Positions 3,000 through 55,233 of a DNA stretch of 64,000 nt are shown in pieces. The translations under genes were made by a program, and so were the position numbers. Under the pieces are notes generated by a model. That model did not search any database. It had not been told where the DNA came from and saw nothing but the letters and a program-made list of their open reading frames with translations. The number at the start of each line of letters is the position of its first letter. The stretch's first letter is position 1. The DNA comes from Georgfuchsia toluolica (lineage in GTDB: Bacteria; Pseudomonadota; Gammaproteobacteria; Burkholderiales; Rhodocyclaceae): contig NZ_CAJQUM010000001.1 in NCBI RefSeq assembly GCF_907163265.1, positions 2,170,001-2,234,000 of the forward strand, in the 5' to 3' direction.

Positions 3000-3028
3000 T
3001 TCCAAAGCAATGACAGCGATGGTAGAAT
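3000..3028 (+). promoter_or_regulatory. Promoter of tRNA-Lys
   Basis: A TTCCAA (-35-like, 3000-3005) and a TAGAAT (-10, 3023-3028) are separated by 17 bases and end 16 bases before the mature tRNA. The GC-rich stretch after the -10 resembles the discriminator of stable-RNA promoters. Inferred from pattern only. Confidence 0.5.
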
Positions 3029-3044
3029 CGCCGCCTGTTTTTCG

Positions 3045-3120
3045 GGGTTGTTAGCTCAGTTGGTAGAGCAGCGGACTCTTAATCCGTAGGTCGAGTGTTC
3101 GAGCCACTCACAACCCACCA
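3045..3120 (+). tRNA. tRNA-Lys (anticodon CTT), integration target
   Basis: A complete 76-nt cloverleaf can be drawn: acceptor GGGTTGT pairs with ACAACCC, the D arm is GCTC/GAGC-like, the anticodon loop CTCTTAA gives CTT (Lys), the T arm is GAGTG-TTCGAGC-CACTC, and CCA is encoded at 3118-3120. The T-arm sequence differs from that in the duplicated 3' half at 10531-10575 (CGGAG-TTCGAAT-CTCCG), yet pairing is conserved. This implies that the 3' half here was supplied by the integrated element. Confidence 0.95.
3076..3092 (+). other. attL core in tRNA-Lys
   Basis: The 17 bases CTCTTAATCCGTAGGTC, spanning the anticodon loop and 3' anticodon stem, recur exactly at 10531-10547. Outside this core the two sites diverge until ACAACCCACCA. 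This is the expected crossover segment for the integrase encoded at 3279. Confidence 0.85.
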
Positions 3121-3128
3121 AATAATAA

Positions 3129-3169
3129 GCCCAATCAGGTAGTTAGCCTGGTTGGGCTTTTTCTTTTTA
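3129..3169 (+). terminator. Rho-independent terminator after tRNA-Lys
   Basis: The 12-bp arms AGCCCAATCAGG (3129-3140) and CCTGGTTGGGCT (3148-3159) pair with a single mismatch around a short loop, followed by a T-rich tract. It lies inside the left end of the integrated element, so the element supplies the tRNA terminator as well as its 3' half. Confidence 0.85.
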
Positions 3170-3278
3170 ATCTTTTTGTCATATCCACTCTTACCCCACT
3201 TTTCATTTGGCGAGAGCGAAAACTATGGTGGATTGTCTGCCACCGCGATGACAGCGAACGGCGGCGCGGGGTGATAGC

Positions 3279-4574
3279 ATGATTGATTGTCCATGCTGTG
3301 CCACTAAGATCGAGGGCTATGCCTTGCCAGACCAGCTACACAAGCTCAGAGATGGCGAGGTTGTCCTCTACAAGCGGCCTGAAAGTAGTCGCTGGCAGGC
3401 CAGGTTCAAACTCCCCGATGGTGCATGGCATAACTTATCCACCAAACGCGCCAGCCTTGACGAGGCGAGGCGAATTGCAGGCGAGGCATACGATGAGGCT
3501 AGGTTCAGATTTAAAACCGGCCAGAGCCCCGTATCGCGGCGTTTCAAGGATGTTGCTAGGCTGACCATCGCAGAACTTGAAAACGCCAAGGCTGCGGGTC
3601 ATGGAAAGGCGATTCACAAGGACTACAAGCAGGCGTTAGAGAAATATTTCATTCCATACTTTGGCAGCAAGCACATTGATCTAATCAACGACGCAGACAT
3701 GATGCAGTTTGAGGCATGGCGAGCACAGCAGATGAAACGATCGCCAGCGGCCAGCACACTGCTCAATCACAATGCAGCATTGCGGAGAGTATTTGAAACA
3801 GCAATTGCCAATGGCTGGATATTGCACGCCAAGGTTCCTGCCATGCGGGCTGTTGGCAGAAAGAGTGAACGCCGTCCAAGTTTCAGCTACGACGAATGGC
3901 GGAAGATTGGTAACACCCTATGGCGCTGGGTGGATAAAGCGACAAGTGAAAGAAGCAAGCAAATCCGCGAATTGCTTTGGGATTATGTGATGATCCTTGC
4001 CAATACTGGCATGCGAACAGGTACAGAAGCATACAACCTGAAATGGAAGCACATCAGTTGGGCAAAGGACAGGAACGGCGACCCTTATCTGAGTGTTGCA
4101 GTGGATGGTAAAACAGGCAAGCGTGAATTTGTCGCCCGTCATCGATGCGAGACTTTCTTCAAGCGCAATCAGAGCCGCTTTCCAGAATTGGCAAAGATGA
4201 GTTTTGATGAACTGTTGAAGGCAAAGCTTGATGTGTATGTGTTCAGGATGCGCAACGGCAAACGGTCAGAGAATCTCTACAAGGTCTTCAATGACTATCT
4301 GGTGGAGCATGGGTTATTGAAGGATAAGCAAGGCGACAGTCGCTCGCTATACAGCCTCCGCCATATGTACGCCACCACCAGGATAGTGATTGACAAATTA
4401 GACATTCACACACTGGCAGTGCAAATGGGAACCTCGGTTGCCATGATTGAAAAACATTACAGTCATCTAACCGCCGCCATGGCCGCTGACGTGTTGGCTG
4501 GTCGCCGCCATGATCCAGAAAAAGCGGCGGAGGGTCGCAAGGCCAAGGCAGCGGCAAACAAGCCTCCAGCCTAG
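3279..4574 (+). CDS. Tyrosine integrase of the tRNA-Lys element
   Basis: Site-specific recombinase that would integrate and excise the element at tRNA-Lys. The 431-residue product has a core-binding region (about 90-190) and a catalytic domain with R246 (NTGMRTGTE), K278 (DGKTGKREF), R361/H362 in LYSLRHMYAT, and nucleophile Y394 in IEKHYSHL. The first residue of the usual HxxR box is Tyr and the second His is Thr (QMGTS), a variation I recall from related integrases. The N-terminus holds a CPCC pair. The start has GGGGTGA 5 bases upstream. The gene begins 158 bp from the attL half-site, the usual place for such an integrase. Confidence 0.93.
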   Translation: MIDCPCCATKIEGYALPDQLHKLRDGEVVLYKRPESSRWQARFKLPDGAWHNLSTKRASLDEARRIAGEAYDEARFRFKTGQSPVSRRFKDVARLTIAELENAKAAGHGKAIHKDYKQALEKYFIPYFGSKHIDLINDADMMQFEAWRAQQMKRSPAASTLLNHNAALRRVFETAIANGWILHAKVPAMRAVGRKSERRPSFSYDEWRKIGNTLWRWVDKATSERSKQIRELLWDYVMILANTGMRTGTEAYNLKWKHISWAKDRNGDPYLSVAVDGKTGKREFVARHRCETFFKRNQSRFPELAKMSFDELLKAKLDVYVFRMRNGKRSENLYKVFNDYLVEHGLLKDKQGDSRSLYSLRHMYATTRIVIDKLDIHTLAVQMGTSVAMIEKHYSHLTAAMAADVLAGRRHDPEKAAEGRKAKAAANKPPA

Positions 4575-4581
4575 CTATCGG

Positions 4582-4827
4582 TCAGTGATTCTCGCTAACC
4601 TTCACCTTGCCCTTGCGGGTGTGTTGTGCGGGTATCATGTAAAGCATCTCGCCCAACTTCTGCACGATCTCCCGCGTGCGCTTGTGCTTGTGTGACATGT
4701 TGGTAAGTGAAGTAAGCCAATCCACCGCAACGGCAGTATCGCGGAAAGCAAGCAGGTAGTTTTTATCGTCCTCTTGGTGGAGCACGATGGAGTTGTCCGG
4801 GTGTTGTGGGCTGCTTGTGAAATGCAT
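4582..4827 (-). CDS. Small hypothetical protein of the element
   Basis: An 81-residue protein that I do not recognise. It is hydrophilic with a KHKRTREIV basic patch, no signal peptide and no membrane segment. I chose the ATG at 4825-4827 because AAGGAG lies 6 bases upstream; the frame is open further upstream. It ends 7 bases from the convergent integrase stop and is the last gene of a minus-strand run that begins with the Rep gene, so it is probably an element maintenance or control gene. Function unknown. Confidence 0.55.
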   Translation of the reverse strand: MHFTSSPQHPDNSIVLHQEDDKNYLLAFRDTAVAVDWLTSLTNMSHKHKRTREIVQKLGEMLYMIPAQHTRKGKVKVSENH

Positions 4828-4876
4828 GTTTTTCTCCTTACTATTGTGGTTGTGGATCGTCTGCGGAGTTGCTGGA

Positions 4877-5053
4877 CTACTTTCCATTAGAGGCATGTTC
4901 TGGCTTTCGCACGCGCAGGAAATGCTGGACTGCCTGCCGATAAATCTCTGAATGCGAGATGCCAAACTTTTTGGCGATTTCTGTCATGTTGGTATGCCAG
5001 TTCCAAGGCATTCTGATGCTGGTGCAGTGATCATGGACAAGTTGTCTAGGCAT
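4877..5053 (-). CDS. Ribbon-helix-helix-like small DNA-binding protein
   Basis: A 58-residue protein with a pattern fitting the MetJ/Arc/CopG fold: a short strand (TSIRMP), then two helices (NMTEIAKKFGISHSEIYRQ and AVQHFLRVRK region). Such proteins commonly repress the copy control, excision or toxin-antitoxin genes of mobile elements. The ATG at 5051-5053 has AGGAG 7 bases upstream. It overlaps the end of the preceding 97-residue gene by 8 bases, so the two are probably co-transcribed with rep. The fold is inferred from pattern only, and the DNA target is unknown; the palindrome at 6079-6134 is one candidate. Confidence 0.6.
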   Translation of the reverse strand: MPRQLVHDHCTSIRMPWNWHTNMTEIAKKFGISHSEIYRQAVQHFLRVRKPEHASNGK

Positions 5054-30209: not shown

Positions 30210-30237
30210 GCGGAAATCATCCCACGAAAAACGGTTA

Positions 30238-30322
30238 GCCACAGAGGACACAGAGTTCACAGAGGAAAGGCAAAGGCAAAATCTGGTTTGTTCTTCTCTG
30301 TGTTCTCTGTGATCTCTGTGGC
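30238..30322. repeat. CCACAGAGG palindromic repeat, copy 1
   Basis: GCCACAGAGGACACAGAG (from 30238) is answered by an imperfect complement CTCTGTGATCTCTGTGGC ending at 30322, with repeated CACAGAG units in both arms. The element occupies most of the promoter gap between the divergent adenosyltransferase and pabB-pabC genes. A second copy is at 55072-55201. Confidence 0.8.
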
Positions 30323-30362: not shown

Positions 30363-32096
30363 ATGATTTGCGAAATCGACTTCCCCGACATCGACGGCGG
30401 GCGCTGGCGCATGCGCTTCGTCCAGCCGCACCGATTATTCATCACACATGTGCTGGACGAAGTGCCGACTGTGATTGCGCAGGCGGAAGCGGCGGCGCGC
30501 GATGAACATTGGGTCGTCGGCTTCGTTGCCTATGAAGCGGCACCGGCCTTCGACCCCGCCTTGCAAGTCAAGGCGGCTACAGCGGCGCTGCCGCTTGCCG
30601 CCTTTGCGGTGTACGGCAGTTATGACGAAGCGCTGACGACCGACGCAAAGGATCGCGACAGCTTTGCCTGCGGGCGCTGGTCGATGACGGCGTCACGCAG
30701 CGCCATCGATGCCGGTATCGCGGACATCCGTGCCGCCATCGGCAACGGCGACTACTATCAGGTAAATTACACGACACGGCTGGAGTCCAAGTTTTCCGGC
30801 AGCGCCGCGGCGCTGTATGCCGCGCTGTGCGAAGCCCAGCCCGACGGCTATGGCGCTTATCTCGACGGCGGCGAGTGGCAGATCGCCTCGGCGTCGCCCG
30901 AACTGTTCTTCGACTGGACGCCGGACCGCACCCTGACCACGCGGCCGATGAAGGGCACCGCACCGCGCACCGCATCGGTCGACGCGTTGCGCGATTCGGC
31001 GAAGGAACGGGCCGAAAACCTGATGATCGTCGATCTGCTGCGCAACGACCTGGCGCGTGTGGCCGAGACCGGTTCGGTCGCCGTGACACGACTGTTCGAC
31101 ATCGAACCGCTGCCGACGGCGTGGCAGATGACCTCGACCGTGCGCTGCAAGACCAGGACGGAGGTGACGCTGGTTGATGTGTTTCGCGCCCTGTTTCCCT
31201 GCGGCTCGGTGACCGGCGCACCCAAGGTGGCGGCCATGCAGGCAATTGCCGAACTGGAGTCGACACCGCGCGGCGTCTATTGCGGCGCCATCGGCCTGAT
31301 TCGTCCCAATGGCCACGCCACGTTCAATGTCGCCATCCGCACCGTGGCGGTGGACGCGAAGACCGGCACGGCACGCTGCGGCATCGGCAGCGGCATCACC
31401 CTCGATTCCACGGCTGCGGCGGAATATGCCGAATGGCTGGTGAAGCGCCGCTTCCTGCTGCACGCCACGGCCGCGTTCGACTTGATTGAAACCCTGCGCC
31501 TGGAGGCCGGGCACTATTGGCTGCTCGACCGGCACCTGCGTCGTCTACAGGACAGCGCGGAACATTTCGGCTTCGACTGCGATGTTGATGGGATACGGCG
31601 CAAACTGGAAGGCAACGTGCGGCAGCATTCGAAGAGCGCCTGGCGCGTCCGGCTGCTGCTGGGGCGCGACGGTAGCGTAAAGCTCGAAACCCATGCACTG
31701 GAAGCCAGTCCCGCTATCGTGCGCGTTGCCCTGGCGCTGACGCCCATCGACAGTGGCAGCGAAACCCTGCAGCACAAGACCAGCGAGCGCGCGATCTATG
31801 CGCCCCATGCGCCGGCCAGCGCGGACATTTTCGACACGCTGCTCTTCAATGAACGCGGCGAGGTCACCGAATTCACGCGCGGCAATGTCGTCGTCGAACT
31901 TGACGGTAAGCGCATTACCCCACCGCTGTCCTGCGGCCTGCTGCCGGGAGTGTTGCGCGCGGAACTGTTGGCAAGCGGCGAAGTCAGTGAAGCCATCGTC
32001 ATGCGCGCCGACCTGGCGCGCGCAACGCGGCTCTGGTTTATCAATAGTGTGCGCGGGGAGTTATTGGCGCAGATCGTCGGCCCCGTCATTCCATAG
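30363..32096 (+). CDS. pabB: Fused aminodeoxychorismate synthase component I / aminodeoxychorismate lyase
   Basis: Makes p-aminobenzoate for folate in one polypeptide. Residues 1 to about 365 are PabB (chorismate-binding enzyme: GDYYQVNYTTRLES, SPELFF, RPMKGTAPRT, LLRNDLARV, PCGSVTGAPKVAAM, YCGAIG, GIGSGIT). Residues about 375-577 are PabC, a PLP fold-type IV lyase (FDLIETLRLEAGHYWLLDRH, HKTSERAIY with the PLP Lys, NERGEVTEFTRGNVVVE). Fusions of this order are known in betaproteobacteria. The start ATG 30363 is close to a repeat, so the promoter may have been altered. Confidence 0.95.
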   Translation: MICEIDFPDIDGGRWRMRFVQPHRLFITHVLDEVPTVIAQAEAAARDEHWVVGFVAYEAAPAFDPALQVKAATAALPLAAFAVYGSYDEALTTDAKDRDSFACGRWSMTASRSAIDAGIADIRAAIGNGDYYQVNYTTRLESKFSGSAAALYAALCEAQPDGYGAYLDGGEWQIASASPELFFDWTPDRTLTTRPMKGTAPRTASVDALRDSAKERAENLMIVDLLRNDLARVAETGSVAVTRLFDIEPLPTAWQMTSTVRCKTRTEVTLVDVFRALFPCGSVTGAPKVAAMQAIAELESTPRGVYCGAIGLIRPNGHATFNVAIRTVAVDAKTGTARCGIGSGITLDSTAAAEYAEWLVKRRFLLHATAAFDLIETLRLEAGHYWLLDRHLRRLQDSAEHFGFDCDVDGIRRKLEGNVRQHSKSAWRVRLLLGRDGSVKLETHALEASPAIVRVALALTPIDSGSETLQHKTSERAIYAPHAPASADIFDTLLFNERGEVTEFTRGNVVVELDGKRITPPLSCGLLPGVLRAELLASGEVSEAIVMRADLARATRLWFINSVRGELLAQIVGPVIP

Positions 32097-32104
32097 GGAT
32101 TCCC

Positions 32105-32359
32105 TTCGGTCATTCCCGCGTAGGCGGGAATCCAGAGGTTTATTGACATCCGATGGCCGGGACTCGCCCCGGCGGGCGACCTACTTTCTTGCTCGTGCAA
32201 GAAAGTAGGCAAAGAAGCACTCCCCGCTGCACCGGCCCTTCGGGCTCCCCTCGCTGCGAAAGGCTCGCCGGGCCGGCATCGCAAACTTGCCTTCGGCTTC
32301 GGACAGCGACGCCGGACTTCCCCCGGCGAACCTTCCTCCACTCGGCGGCGCAGAAGGGG
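32105..32359 (+). repeat. Long inverted repeat, left copy
   Basis: About 255 bp that reappear in reverse complement at 33247-33551 with mismatches and one insertion. It contains an ATTCCCGCGTAGGCGGGAAT palindrome, a 13-bp-arm hairpin CCTACTTTCTTGC/GCAAGAAAGTAGG (32180-32209) and a long coding-like but frame-disrupted tail ending GGCGGCGCAGAAGGGG. Confidence 0.85.
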
Positions 32360-32517
32360 GCTTGTCCATGCTATCTCGACGAGTGCGCAAAGTAGAGCCA
32401 GAAATTCAATTCACACTAGTCCCAATAGTTTTCGGTTTCTACAGCCTCAACGTGGAAGTCACCGACGGATCACCGCAGGCGCGGAGTTCATATATGATGG
32501 ATTAGACCGCATTAACA

Positions 32518-33078
32518 TCACGAAGAGAGTCCAACGTTCGCATAGGTCAAACGGGTCGCCCGCGTAATCACTTCTAGCAGAAGGACAACTTCTGACGGAT
32601 TAGAGACCGGTTCAAGCAACGAGTCGGTACTGATATTTAGATGGGTGACGAGTCGGTCGTCACCAAGGAGGCAAAAGAATGGCGTTTCACTCTCGCTAGG
32701 GGCATCGCCGCGAGGCAGAGCAGTCGCTTCTCGTGGAACTCGCAGTGCGTCCAATAAGGTCTTTATCCGGTTATCAAGATCACCAGCATGGCTAACTAAC
32801 TCTCCTGGCGCGCCAGGCCGTAGCATCGTGATATTCAACTCAACCACCATGTGAATGCTCTCACTTACGAGTGGAGCGAACTGAAAACTTCCAATTTGCT
32901 CAATAAGTGTGATGTCACCCGGCTTTGGTTCTGGCTTGAGCCAGTCGGTAAAATCGGCCAGCGGCGGTTGCGCCCAAAGTTGCTTGAGTTGCGGATGAAA
33001 AGCGCGGCGAATTGCCTGCTTATCGTCGACGCCGCGATTCGACTTGAGAGGGCCGCGATAAAAAAGTGTAAAGCGCAT
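32518..33078 (-). CDS. RusA-like endonuclease-fold protein between inverted repeats
   Basis: A 186-residue protein of no named family that I can assign. Two segments match the active site of RusA Holliday-junction resolvases: GDLDNRIKTLLDAL (about residues 99-112; Asp, Asp, Lys spaced as D70, D72, K76 of RusA) and LLGDDRLV (about 138-145; the D90/D91 pair). It is longer than phage RusA (about 120) and has no phage genes nearby. AT-richer than its neighbours, without a clear ribosome site, and framed by long inverted repeats, it looks acquired. The function is inferred from motif spacing only. Confidence 0.6.
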   Translation of the reverse strand: MRFTLFYRGPLKSNRGVDDKQAIRRAFHPQLKQLWAQPPLADFTDWLKPEPKPGDITLIEQIGSFQFAPLVSESIHMVVELNITMLRPGAPGELVSHAGDLDNRIKTLLDALRVPREATALPRGDAPSESETPFFCLLGDDRLVTHLNISTDSLLEPVSNPSEVVLLLEVITRATRLTYANVGLSS

Positions 33079-33246
33079 GATTGGGGTTCTGCGGGCTAAC
33101 GTGAAGTAGATGTCGTCGAGAAATGGCGGGGCATGTCATCAAATAGCCATGTATGGCAATTGGTATCCATATCTAGGCATGGTGTTTTCATTTCGCCAAC
33201 AGCATACATATCAATAAAAGTGATGTCCATTGCTCGACACGTTAAA

Positions 33247-33551
33247 CCCCTTCTGCGCCGCCGAGTGGAGGAAGGTTCGCCGGGGGAAGTCCGGCGTCGC
33301 TGTCCGAGCCGCAGGCGAGTTTGCGACGCGGGTCTGGCGAATCTTCTGGAGCGAGGGCAGCCGAACGAAGTGAGGCCGGTGCAGCGGGGAGTGCTTCTTT
33401 GCCTACTTTCTTGCACGAGCAAGAAAGTAGGTCGTCTCCGGGGCGAGTCCCGGCTATCTCCCTTATGCCGTTCATGTTTCGGCAAGCTCAACACGAACGG
33501 ATATACAGGGAAGAAAGCCACTGGATTCCCGCCTGCGCGGGAACGACCGAA
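33247..33551 (-). repeat. Long inverted repeat, right copy
   Basis: Reverse-complement partner of 32105-32359. The hairpin block, the CACTCCCCGCTGCACCGGCC block and the final GAACCTTCCTCCACTCGGCG block are near identical; the middle is more diverged. A REP-like sequence at 33467-33500 is inserted in this copy only. Confidence 0.85.
33467..33500. repeat. REP-like palindrome in right inverted repeat
   Basis: CCGTTCATG at the left and CACGAACGG at the right frame a TTTCGGCAAGCTCAA core, the same family as 61814-61870. Confidence 0.7.
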
Positions 33552-33649
33552 GAAAGTCCCCGCGTGCACAAGAAAGGTTCCAGGTTCGAATTGTTTTCCG
33601 CATGCGGCATGGATCAGGCTCATCTGCGGCATGCGCGGCCTGCAAATGA

Positions 33650-34402
33650 CTAATTTCTCGTATAAGCCAACTGGTAGCTGGCGACGCCTTCGAACGCGGT
33701 AAGTTCGCTCGCCAGGCCGGATAGCGATAATCCGTATTTCCTGTTCAGCGCGACCGCCACGAAGCGCCATTCGGCACAATTTTCCTTGAGTCCGATGGAT
33801 AGCGTGCCCATCGCGATTTCATAGCCGCGTTGCAGCGCCATTTGGCGCAGGGCTGCTTCGCGTGGCTCAAAGCCGGGGCGGAAGTGCATCACAACCTGCA
33901 CGGCATGGTGTTGCGGCAGCCAGGTCTCGAGCCGCGATACCCACATCATGCAGGTGACCGAGAGCAGGGTCAGCAGAATGGCGGCGGAGTAAAGCTCGAC
34001 GCCGACCAGCACGCCGACGGCTGACGATGCCCAGATCGATGCTGCGGTGGTGAGTCCGCTGATCGAGAGACCCTCCTTCAATATGACACCAGCACCGAGG
34101 AAGCCAATACCCGTGACGATACCCTGGATCACGCGGGTCGGGTCAATGGCCCCGACTTGCTGCAGGCCATGTGCGCCGAACCAGAAGGCCGGGTAGCCGC
34201 AGATCGCTACCAGTCCGGCGGAGGCCGTACACACCAGGCCATAGGTGCGCATGCCCGCGGCGCGGCCGTGATAGGAGCGTTCATAGCCAAGTATCAGACC
34301 GAGCACAAAGGCGCCGGTGAGGTTCATAAACACCTCGATATTGATGGCGACCTCGGATACGGTCCAGAAACTTTTCAGATATTCCGGGGTGAACGGTTCC
34401 AT
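33650..34402 (-). CDS. MgtC/SapB family membrane protein
   Basis: A 250-residue inner-membrane protein. The N-terminal two thirds match MgtC: LTGAFVLGLILGYERSYHGRAAGMRT (read as FVLGLILGYERS and GRAAGMRT, about residues 30-55), then GIGFLGAGVILKEG and LTTAASIWASSAVGV, with four to five spans. The C-terminal 70 residues form a small ACT-like domain. MgtC proteins act in adaptation to low magnesium or acid, often by modulating other transporters. GAGGGGAG lies 7 bases before the ATG. It sits 16 bp after an AI-2E-family gene on the same strand. Confidence 0.92.
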   Translation of the reverse strand: MEPFTPEYLKSFWTVSEVAINIEVFMNLTGAFVLGLILGYERSYHGRAAGMRTYGLVCTASAGLVAICGYPAFWFGAHGLQQVGAIDPTRVIQGIVTGIGFLGAGVILKEGLSISGLTTAASIWASSAVGVLVGVELYSAAILLTLLSVTCMMWVSRLETWLPQHHAVQVVMHFRPGFEPREAALRQMALQRGYEIAMGTLSIGLKENCAEWRFVAVALNRKYGLSLSGLASELTAFEGVASYQLAYTRN

Positions 34403-40395: not shown

Positions 40396-41952
40396 ATGGG
40401 TTCTCGCATTACCGGACACAGGTGGAACAATTTCGCAAAGGCTCTGCTGCTGAGCCTGGCGCTACATGCATTGGTTCTCTCTCTGCAGTTCGGCGACTCG
40501 GACAGTGGTTTGCCCAGGTTCGGGATGCCGGAAGAGTCCAAGACTGCCAGCATCCCAATGCTGAATGCGATCCTGCATAACCAGGAAGTGGTGGAAAAGT
40601 CGCTACCGGAATTGGCTACCCAGGCTGTTGTCGGCAGTAGCGAGCAGCACACTCCCGGTTCGCTGAACCGGGAACCTCCGCCGTCAAATCTGCCGCCCGA
40701 ACCTGTCACCGCCAGCATTGCCAAGCTTGAGACGCGCCCGCCAGAATCGGTGGAGAAGCGTCCTGTCGCAGGCGTGACGTCAGAAGCGCCGAAAATTGTT
40801 GCGCCCGCCGCTGATGTCGCCGTGTTGAGCACGGACAAGACAAGTACATGGAGCCGGCCTGTTGGAGGTGACGAAACGCTGAACAAGCAGGAAGGCGCTG
40901 AGCATAAAAAAGAAACCCCTGCTCCCGAACAGAAAACGGTTGAAGAACAGGTACGGATTGAAGGGGAGAAGGCAGCCCAGGCAGCGGCTGCGCAGGAGAA
41001 GGAGCTGGCCTTGGAGAGAAAGCGGGCCGAGGAACAGGCTGCTGAGGCCAGAGCGAGAGAGGAAGCTGCCCGGGCGCAGCAGGCCGCAGCCGAAGCCCTG
41101 GCACGCCAGCACGAAGTCGAAAAACTCGCCGCAGAAAAAGCCGCTAAAGAGACTGCGGAAAAAAAACTGGCAGAGCAACAGAAAATGGCTGAGGAACAGG
41201 CGCGGATTGAAAAGGAAAAAGCCGCCCAGGTAGCCGCTGCGCGGGAGAAGGAGCTGGCCTTGGAGAGAAAGCAGGCCGAGGAACAGGCTGCTGCGGCCAG
41301 AGCGAGAGAAGAAGCTGCCCTGGCGCAGCAGGCCGCAGCCAAAGCCCTGGCACACCAGCGCGAAGCCGAAAAACTCGCCACAGAAAAGGCCGCAAAAGAT
41401 GCGGCGGGAAAAATTCTGGCGGAACAACAGGACCGCCTTTCAAATATGGGGACAGGCAAACCCGATGGCGGCAAGGAAAGTGGAAGCGCGCCAACTGCGG
41501 GGAAAGGCAGCGATCTTGCGCGGCGGGCGATCGATGCGATCAGGGGCGGACAGATGGGCTTGCCGGGGATTGAAAGCGCAGAACCTGTCCGGCCACGGCA
41601 CGGCAGTATTCTGGGCAGAAACCCCAAAGAAATACAATTGGCCTTTTACGGCGAAGGCTGGCGGCAGAAGATAGAACGCATCGGCAGCCTGAATTATCCG
41701 ACGTTGTCGAAGAACCTTGTCTACGATCCCCTGGTGGCAACCGTGAGCATCAACAGCGATGGCACGCTTGCCGGCGTGCGCGTCGTGAAAAGCAGCGGAC
41801 ACAAGGATCTGGACGAAGCCGTGCTGCGGATTGTGACCATGAGTGCGCCGTTTGCGCCGTTCCCGCCTGACATGAAGCGAATGTATGACGTTGTTGATCT
41901 CACCCGCACCTGGGTTTTCCTGGATTACCGGCCAACAATTACCGGCGAGTGA
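40396..41952 (+). CDS. TonB/TolA-like energy transducer with duplicated coiled coil
   Basis: A 518-residue inner-membrane-anchored periplasm-spanning protein: one N-terminal span (FAKALLLSLALHALVLSLQF, about 13-32) with the SxxxH-type motif (SLALHALVL) expected of TonB-ExbBD contacts, a Pro-rich stretch, a long Ala/Glu/Lys coiled coil (about 180-350) and a C-terminal TonB domain (VATVSINSDGTLAGVRVVKS, SSGHKDLDEAVLRIV). The coiled coil holds two near-identical 83-residue units, so it has TolA-like reach with a TonB end. No exbB/exbD or receptor gene is adjacent; the start ATG has no strong ribosome site. Confidence 0.85.
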   Translation: MGSRITGHRWNNFAKALLLSLALHALVLSLQFGDSDSGLPRFGMPEESKTASIPMLNAILHNQEVVEKSLPELATQAVVGSSEQHTPGSLNREPPPSNLPPEPVTASIAKLETRPPESVEKRPVAGVTSEAPKIVAPAADVAVLSTDKTSTWSRPVGGDETLNKQEGAEHKKETPAPEQKTVEEQVRIEGEKAAQAAAAQEKELALERKRAEEQAAEARAREEAARAQQAAAEALARQHEVEKLAAEKAAKETAEKKLAEQQKMAEEQARIEKEKAAQVAAAREKELALERKQAEEQAAAARAREEAALAQQAAAKALAHQREAEKLATEKAAKDAAGKILAEQQDRLSNMGTGKPDGGKESGSAPTAGKGSDLARRAIDAIRGGQMGLPGIESAEPVRPRHGSILGRNPKEIQLAFYGEGWRQKIERIGSLNYPTLSKNLVYDPLVATVSINSDGTLAGVRVVKSSGHKDLDEAVLRIVTMSAPFAPFPPDMKRMYDVVDLTRTWVFLDYRPTITGE

Positions 41953-55071: not shown

Positions 55072-55201
55072 GCCACAGAGGACACAGAGAACACAGAGGA
55101 AGTCAAAAACATCAGACAATGAATTGAGTCTGGCAAACGGAAAGCATGTCCTTTGGTTTTTTGATTTTGCTTTTCTCTGTGCACTCTGTGTCCTCTGTGG
55201 C
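55072..55201. repeat. CCACAGAGG palindromic repeat, copy 2
   Basis: GCCACAGAGGACACAGAG at 55072 and CTCTGTGTCCTCTGTGGC ending at 55201 are exact complements over 18 bases, with further CACAGAG units inside. The 130-bp element could fold as one long hairpin. It fills the gap between hrpA and the next gene. Confidence 0.85.
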
Positions 55202-55233
55202 TAAATGGTTTAGGGGTTTTTGTGGAGGCTTTT

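Follow-up and report, generated by a model that had tools for sequence, protein, structure and literature searches.

A RusA-like nuclease gene of Georgfuchsia toluolica in a dispersed, probably mobile family of cassettes framed by structured inverted repeats

Related systems and the present locus

In the minimal mobile elements of Neisseria, a fixed locus with conserved flanks can carry one or another whole gene. Integron gene cassettes are single, promoter-poor foreign genes that are mobilised by folded recombination sites. In TIMEs and their mosaic non-autonomous transposons, passenger genes are framed by miniature elements with 38-bp Tn3-type ends and target duplications of 5-6 bp (PMC4133298). 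Among the structured repeats, GGGGWSAS is the motif of TIRYT repeats, and CGTC-REP corresponds to dRS3 (PMC3733652).

We analysed a stretch of 64,000 nucleotides from Georgfuchsia toluolica (contig NZ_CAJQUM010000001.1, positions 2,170,001 to 2,234,000; termed the window here), in which two inverted arms enclose a RusA-like nuclease gene. With TIMEs and the Bacillus mobile insertion cassettes, this unit and its relatives share transposase-less passengers, miniature inverted elements as a frame and the inward orientation. Unlike in TIMEs, however, the arms are 210-300 bp long and structured, and terminal inverted ends, a duplication and a parental transposon were not recognised. Like the Neisseria minimal mobile elements, the units place different whole genes at one locus with conserved flanks, and the outer sequence in the window's genome is CGTC-REP/dRS3-like, recalling the Neisseria dRS3/NIME repeats. 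In contrast to minimal mobile elements, each cargo has its own pair of inverted arms as a frame, which is met again at unrelated loci and in many genera, and the sites can be wholly free of repeats; exchange through flank homology without dedicated repeats is therefore not what is seen, since dispersed arms at unrelated loci frame the cargo. With REP/RAYT and TIRYT elements (PMC3733652) the arms have in common that they are structured palindromic repeats in gene gaps. The likeness to integron cassettes is an analogy only, consisting of folded sites and single foreign genes; here there is neither an integrase nor an array, and each gene has two inverted arms instead of one attC.

The principle of passenger genes framed by miniature elements is thus already known from the TIMEs (PMC4133298). 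The combination of long covarying arms, strict orientation and cargo swapping at fixed loci is new as far as can be told. A literature search, whose coverage fell short of most subscription journals, found no description of these arms, these cassettes or an equivalent. Neither sequence nor keyword searches returned a name for the repeat, the betaproteobacterial BRE (PMC3110155) lying outside the sequence comparison.

The repeat pair and its passenger in the window

The unit lies between two convergent genes and consists of the following features.

30363-32096, plus strand: left flanking gene, pabB-like (chorismate-binding and aminotransferase IV), with its stop at 32096
32096-32141, plus strand: left outer end, a CGTC-REP/dRS3-like hairpin TCATTCCCGCG-TAG-GCGGGAATCCAG that pairs with 33515-33560
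32152-32359, plus strand: left arm core, inner end 32359 toward the gene; profile match over positions 2-208 of 210
32156-32173, plus strand: hairpin 1 of the left arm (GCCGGGACTCGCCCCGGC)
32180-32209, plus strand: hairpin 2 of the left arm, perfect 13-bp stem, with covariation over 71 arms
32518-33078, minus strand: RusA-like nuclease gene, the passenger, 186 aa
33247-33458, minus strand: right arm core, inner end 33247 toward the gene
33402-33431, minus strand: hairpin 2 of the right arm, with covariation over 71 arms
33437-33454, minus strand: hairpin 1 of the right arm
33468-33500, no strand: additional palindrome CCGTTCATGTTTCGGCAAGCTCAACACGAACGG in the outer part of the right arm, from the seed alignment
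33515-33560, minus strand: right outer end, CGTC-REP/dRS3-like, pairing with 32096-32141
33650-34402, minus strand: right flanking gene of the MgtC family, in convergent orientation to the left gene

The initial annotation, made from the letters alone, had described two long inverted repeats, each with a strong hairpin, around an AT-richer gene. This description was confirmed, and its positions were correct within about 10 bases. The two arms are 89% identical over 214 columns (E=6e-73), and no second inverted repeat near the size of this pair is present in the 64 kb window. Including the REP-like outer ends, the arms measure about 265 and 315 bp; the left outer end has about 40 other short copies in the genome. 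Hairpin 2 reads CCTACTTTCTTGC-4nt-GCAAGAAAGTAGG in both arms, with all 13 bp paired. In the seed alignment the palindrome CCGTTCATGTTTCGGCAAGCTCAACACGAACGG is missing from the left arm of the window, but the second unit of this genome has it in either arm. Between the arms the GC content is 50%, compared with 60-65% in the flanks.

Over 71 arms, 10 of the 13 pairs in the stem of hairpin 2 show changes on both sides, and covariation of the arm structure exceeds that of 500/500 shuffles and of every slid version by every measure, although template-switch correction of palindromes may add part of this signal and kinship inflates the counts. Covariation of the arm hairpin is hence established at the level of aligned sequences and suggests that the strand has a function in its folded form.

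The 186-aa protein carries the motif GDLDNRIKxxxDAL followed further on by DD, and GDLDNRIK, D109 and D140 are invariant across 11 homologues. This is the RusA motif pattern, in line with the active-site motifs of Holliday-junction resolvases noted initially. In Pfam the ORF stays below the threshold for RusA (PF05866; E=0.32, 12 bits vs a cut-off of 22.8). The top five PDB matches of an AlphaFold2 model (pLDDT 84) are all chains of E. coli RusA (best E 7e-3, probability 0.99), so that E. coli RusA is the best match of the predicted fold, though weakly. The modelled fold and the DxDN..K...D.L / DD pattern are those of the RusA resolvase, whereas the cargo protein is longer (186 aa vs about 120 aa) and its sequence similarity falls short of the Pfam cut-off.

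Homologues with 29-50% identity are found in Nitrosococcus, Nostoc, Acidobacteria and Alphaproteobacteria, and a broken homologue (54-64% identity) in another genome of the same order. A core arm was present at 0 of 13 homologue loci examined; the gene is thus not tied to these repeats. At 12 of these loci no inverted repeat spans the gene, and at the remaining one (L057) a 42-bp match lies far from it. On the Nitrosococcus halophilus plasmid pNHAL01 (L245, 4396-9301) the homologue stands within a run of single genes, where its neighbours are a CAP12/Pycsar TIR protein, an HNH nuclease and a borderline Mrr-like nuclease. Judging from these neighbours in another genome and from the other cargo described below, the RusA-like gene is plausibly a single-gene phage-defence nuclease.

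Recurrence of the unit and variation of its cargo

Among 150 relatives searched, the arm is present in 23 genomes. At 63 loci, neighbouring arms less than 4 kb apart face inward in 40 cases and outward in 0; the loci were selected for arm matches, which leaves this count unaffected but affects the frequency of single arms, which also exist among them. Neighbouring arms in the same direction number 12 and belong mostly to a tandem array (L072) and to split arms. The array, with four full arms as direct repeats at 3014-4985, is the one clear exception to inward pairing. Sequence comparison thus establishes a fixed inward orientation, and terminal inverted repeats of fixed orientation frame the unit as in MITE- or TIME-type elements. 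Three further units bring the total of inward-facing units to 43.

The window's genome contains a second inward-facing pair, framing a different gene of 307 aa, and three single arms. Directly at the inner side of one of these (L010, 3415-3954) lies a RiboL-PSP-HEPN gene; this single arm is perhaps a unit minus one arm. Other families of the order and class have compact inward pairs, whose arms are about 90-410 bp apart. Those with little between the arms in other families of the class are L248, L254, L255, L257-L260, L266 and L041. In two units of one genome (L060, 1682-2991; L061, 4553-5862) an insert of about 1.3 kb interrupts the arm at the same place, model positions 70-76, with a 7-base overlap, and is probably an insertion sequence targeting the repeat. 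Searches of plasmid and phage collections gave no more than two short matches to the arm, both on plasmids (Comamonas and Variovorax) and covering part of the arm; viral contigs gave three matches to the hairpin.

The cargo mostly comprises one or two genes per unit. In 40 of 40 units the cargo has a lower GC content than the flanks (means 52.3% vs 64.3%), which establishes its foreign character by composition. Most cargo is without recognised function. Recognised families include TIR, Mrr (two), HNH, HARE-HTH, DUF5131, DnaJ, TPR and PEP-CTERM proteins; SIR2-like and deoxyribosyltransferase-like matches are weaker. No RusA-like gene was found in the units examined other than that of the window. 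PADLOC matches in the cargo include PDC-M41A, PDC-S14, HEC-08, PDC-S02/type IV restriction and PDC-S66. At E<=1e-5 at least 7 of 40 cargo proteins match, vs 3-12 of 59 flanking controls; because the controls match PADLOC too, an enrichment of the cargo in defence genes is only suggestive.

The window's unit is absent from the sister species, represented by the other genome of the genus that was compared (G001). There the 3' end of the pabB-like gene abuts the mgtC-like gene, the stop codons overlapping in CTAG, while 1,553 bases separate the two stops in the window. This empty site contains no repeat whatsoever. In a related genus of 31 species (31 genomes) one locus with conserved flanks holds the unit, or pieces of it at contig ends, in about 11 species; in eleven others the flanks are 47-403 bp apart and arms are missing. 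Several of these arm-less sites retain short remnants of arm ends, and some of them are therefore losses or compact platforms. A site in G165, considered as a clean empty counterpart of the unit at L059, was discarded because hairpin remnants are present. No target-site duplication was recognised at occupied and empty sites, where the exact ends of the unit are undefined. A constant outer end was likewise not found, the outer ends differing among genera.

Occupied as well as empty loci are established in this way, and the content of occupied loci varies. Cargoes at the locus of the 31-genome genus have only short weak matches in common, and at a second locus shared flanks (91-93%) and arms enclose different cargo in G109 and G173. 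The reverse also occurs. Arms at two unrelated loci enclose the same cargo (87-90% identical DNA) in opposite orientation, and two genera have another cargo in common (80% amino acid identity), again between arms and with no flank similarity detected. These comparisons establish that one locus can hold unrelated cargo and that a given cargo can recur at another locus or in another genus. Arm identities group neither by locus nor by genome; for species with flanking genes about 87% alike, arm identity is as high as 97%. Vertically inherited arms that act as locus-bound frames in which the cargo alone changes were rejected on this ground.

Possible modes of movement

We propose that the arms, not the RusA-like gene, define the element and that this gene is a passenger. 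The unit in the window probably belongs to a dispersed family of mobile gene cassettes with inward-facing structured arms of about 210-300 bp and one or two foreign passengers. In the most likely reading, the units are mobile cassettes of the non-autonomous kind, whose inverted repeats are long and structured. They would move through a factor that acts in trans on the (folded) arms, and recombination between arms may additionally exchange or invert cargo. A bolder reading, which we regard as possible but rather doubtful, takes the arms as attC-like sites that recombine in folded form and belong to a gene-capture system not described so far. Its trans-acting enzyme would read the covarying hairpins and insert, swap or flip single foreign genes between two arms that face inward, and the compact arm pairs seen across the class would be empty acceptors.

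Somewhat more probable, though still less likely than not, is a model in which dispersed arms provide homology only and, after DNA uptake, whole genes are swapped between arms in the manner of the Neisseria minimal mobile elements, with no dedicated enzyme. Unrelated cargo between common arms at one locus, outer ends of the Neisseria dRS3 type, and arms ungrouped by locus or genome, as frequent exchange would predict, are all in its favour. However, the sister's empty site has no repeat, which argues that homology alone does not account for the arrival of the unit; in addition, this model does not demand the strict inward orientation and leaves the covarying hairpin unexplained. We consider it improbable that the arms are static, terminator- or insulator-like regulatory repeats that gather around foreign genes of weak expression and have nothing to do with mobility. 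Stable, covarying hairpins would suit such a role, as would the position of the arms in gene gaps, which by a rough ORF criterion are flanked by convergent genes in 15 of 36 units; REPs prefer gene gaps and convergent places as well (PMC3733652). Yet 16 of these units have co-directional and 5 divergent flanking genes, and the arms have no match in Rfam. The sister's empty site, the compact pairs with almost nothing inside, and the recurrence of a cargo between arms, be it at unrelated loci or in two genera, would all be left unexplained.

The initial annotation had suggested a self-related unit. In such a unit the RusA-like nuclease would cut the cruciforms of its own repeats and thereby mobilise or preserve the unit. 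A RusA-like fold and motifs between repeats able to form cruciforms speak for this, but it is very improbable. The distribution of gene and arms contradicts such an action, given the 13 homologue loci that lack these repeats and the dozens of unrelated genes framed by the same arms. Occurrence of the gene without the repeats and of the repeats without the gene breaks the link between nuclease and repeat, but not the unit itself. The alternative offered at the same time, a chance insertion between common dispersed repeats, came closer. Chance, however, fits neither the absence of outward pairs nor a cargo that is always low in GC, nor loci that are filled differently or left empty depending on the species.

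Against the preferred reading, non-autonomous cassettes moved in trans, stands that no transposase or recombinase was found with the units; the lack of a recognised target-site duplication, the outer ends that differ among genera, the single arms and the direct array also weigh against it. None of the 25 cargo Pfam families listed, out of 32 (40 cargo proteins), is a transposase, recombinase or mobility family. The Y1 transposase genes examined have no core arm in their surroundings (about 5 kb), and a RAYT/Y1 transposase was accordingly rejected as the mover. The arms frame no Y1 tyrosine transposase gene, in contrast to what RAYT/TIRYT elements require, and neither the listed cargo families nor the Y1 loci include an autonomous element whose transposase shares the ends. 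In the second unit of the window's genome, GGGGTCAG motifs face each other at both inner ends (L009, 3578-3597 and 4538-4557). GGGGTCAG fits GGGGWSAS and resembles TIRYT terminal repeats. As a general signal of inner ends GGGGWSAS was rejected, occurring at 4 of 80 inner ends vs a shuffle mean of 1.4 and maximum of 5.

The units suggest a route by which single foreign genes, some of them anti-phage-like, are kept and swapped at fixed chromosomal sites with no visible transposase. If the arms are the determinant, inward arm pairs would permit the discovery of accessory and defence genes from sequence only, and the missing enzyme would become a concrete target.

Two further repeats were noted in the window. 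A direct tandem repeat of 254 bases (40928-41181 and 41177-41430) is 87% identical between its copies. Inverted copies of 47 bases at 30235-30281 and 55159-55204 are 89% identical and probably represent another dispersed repeat.
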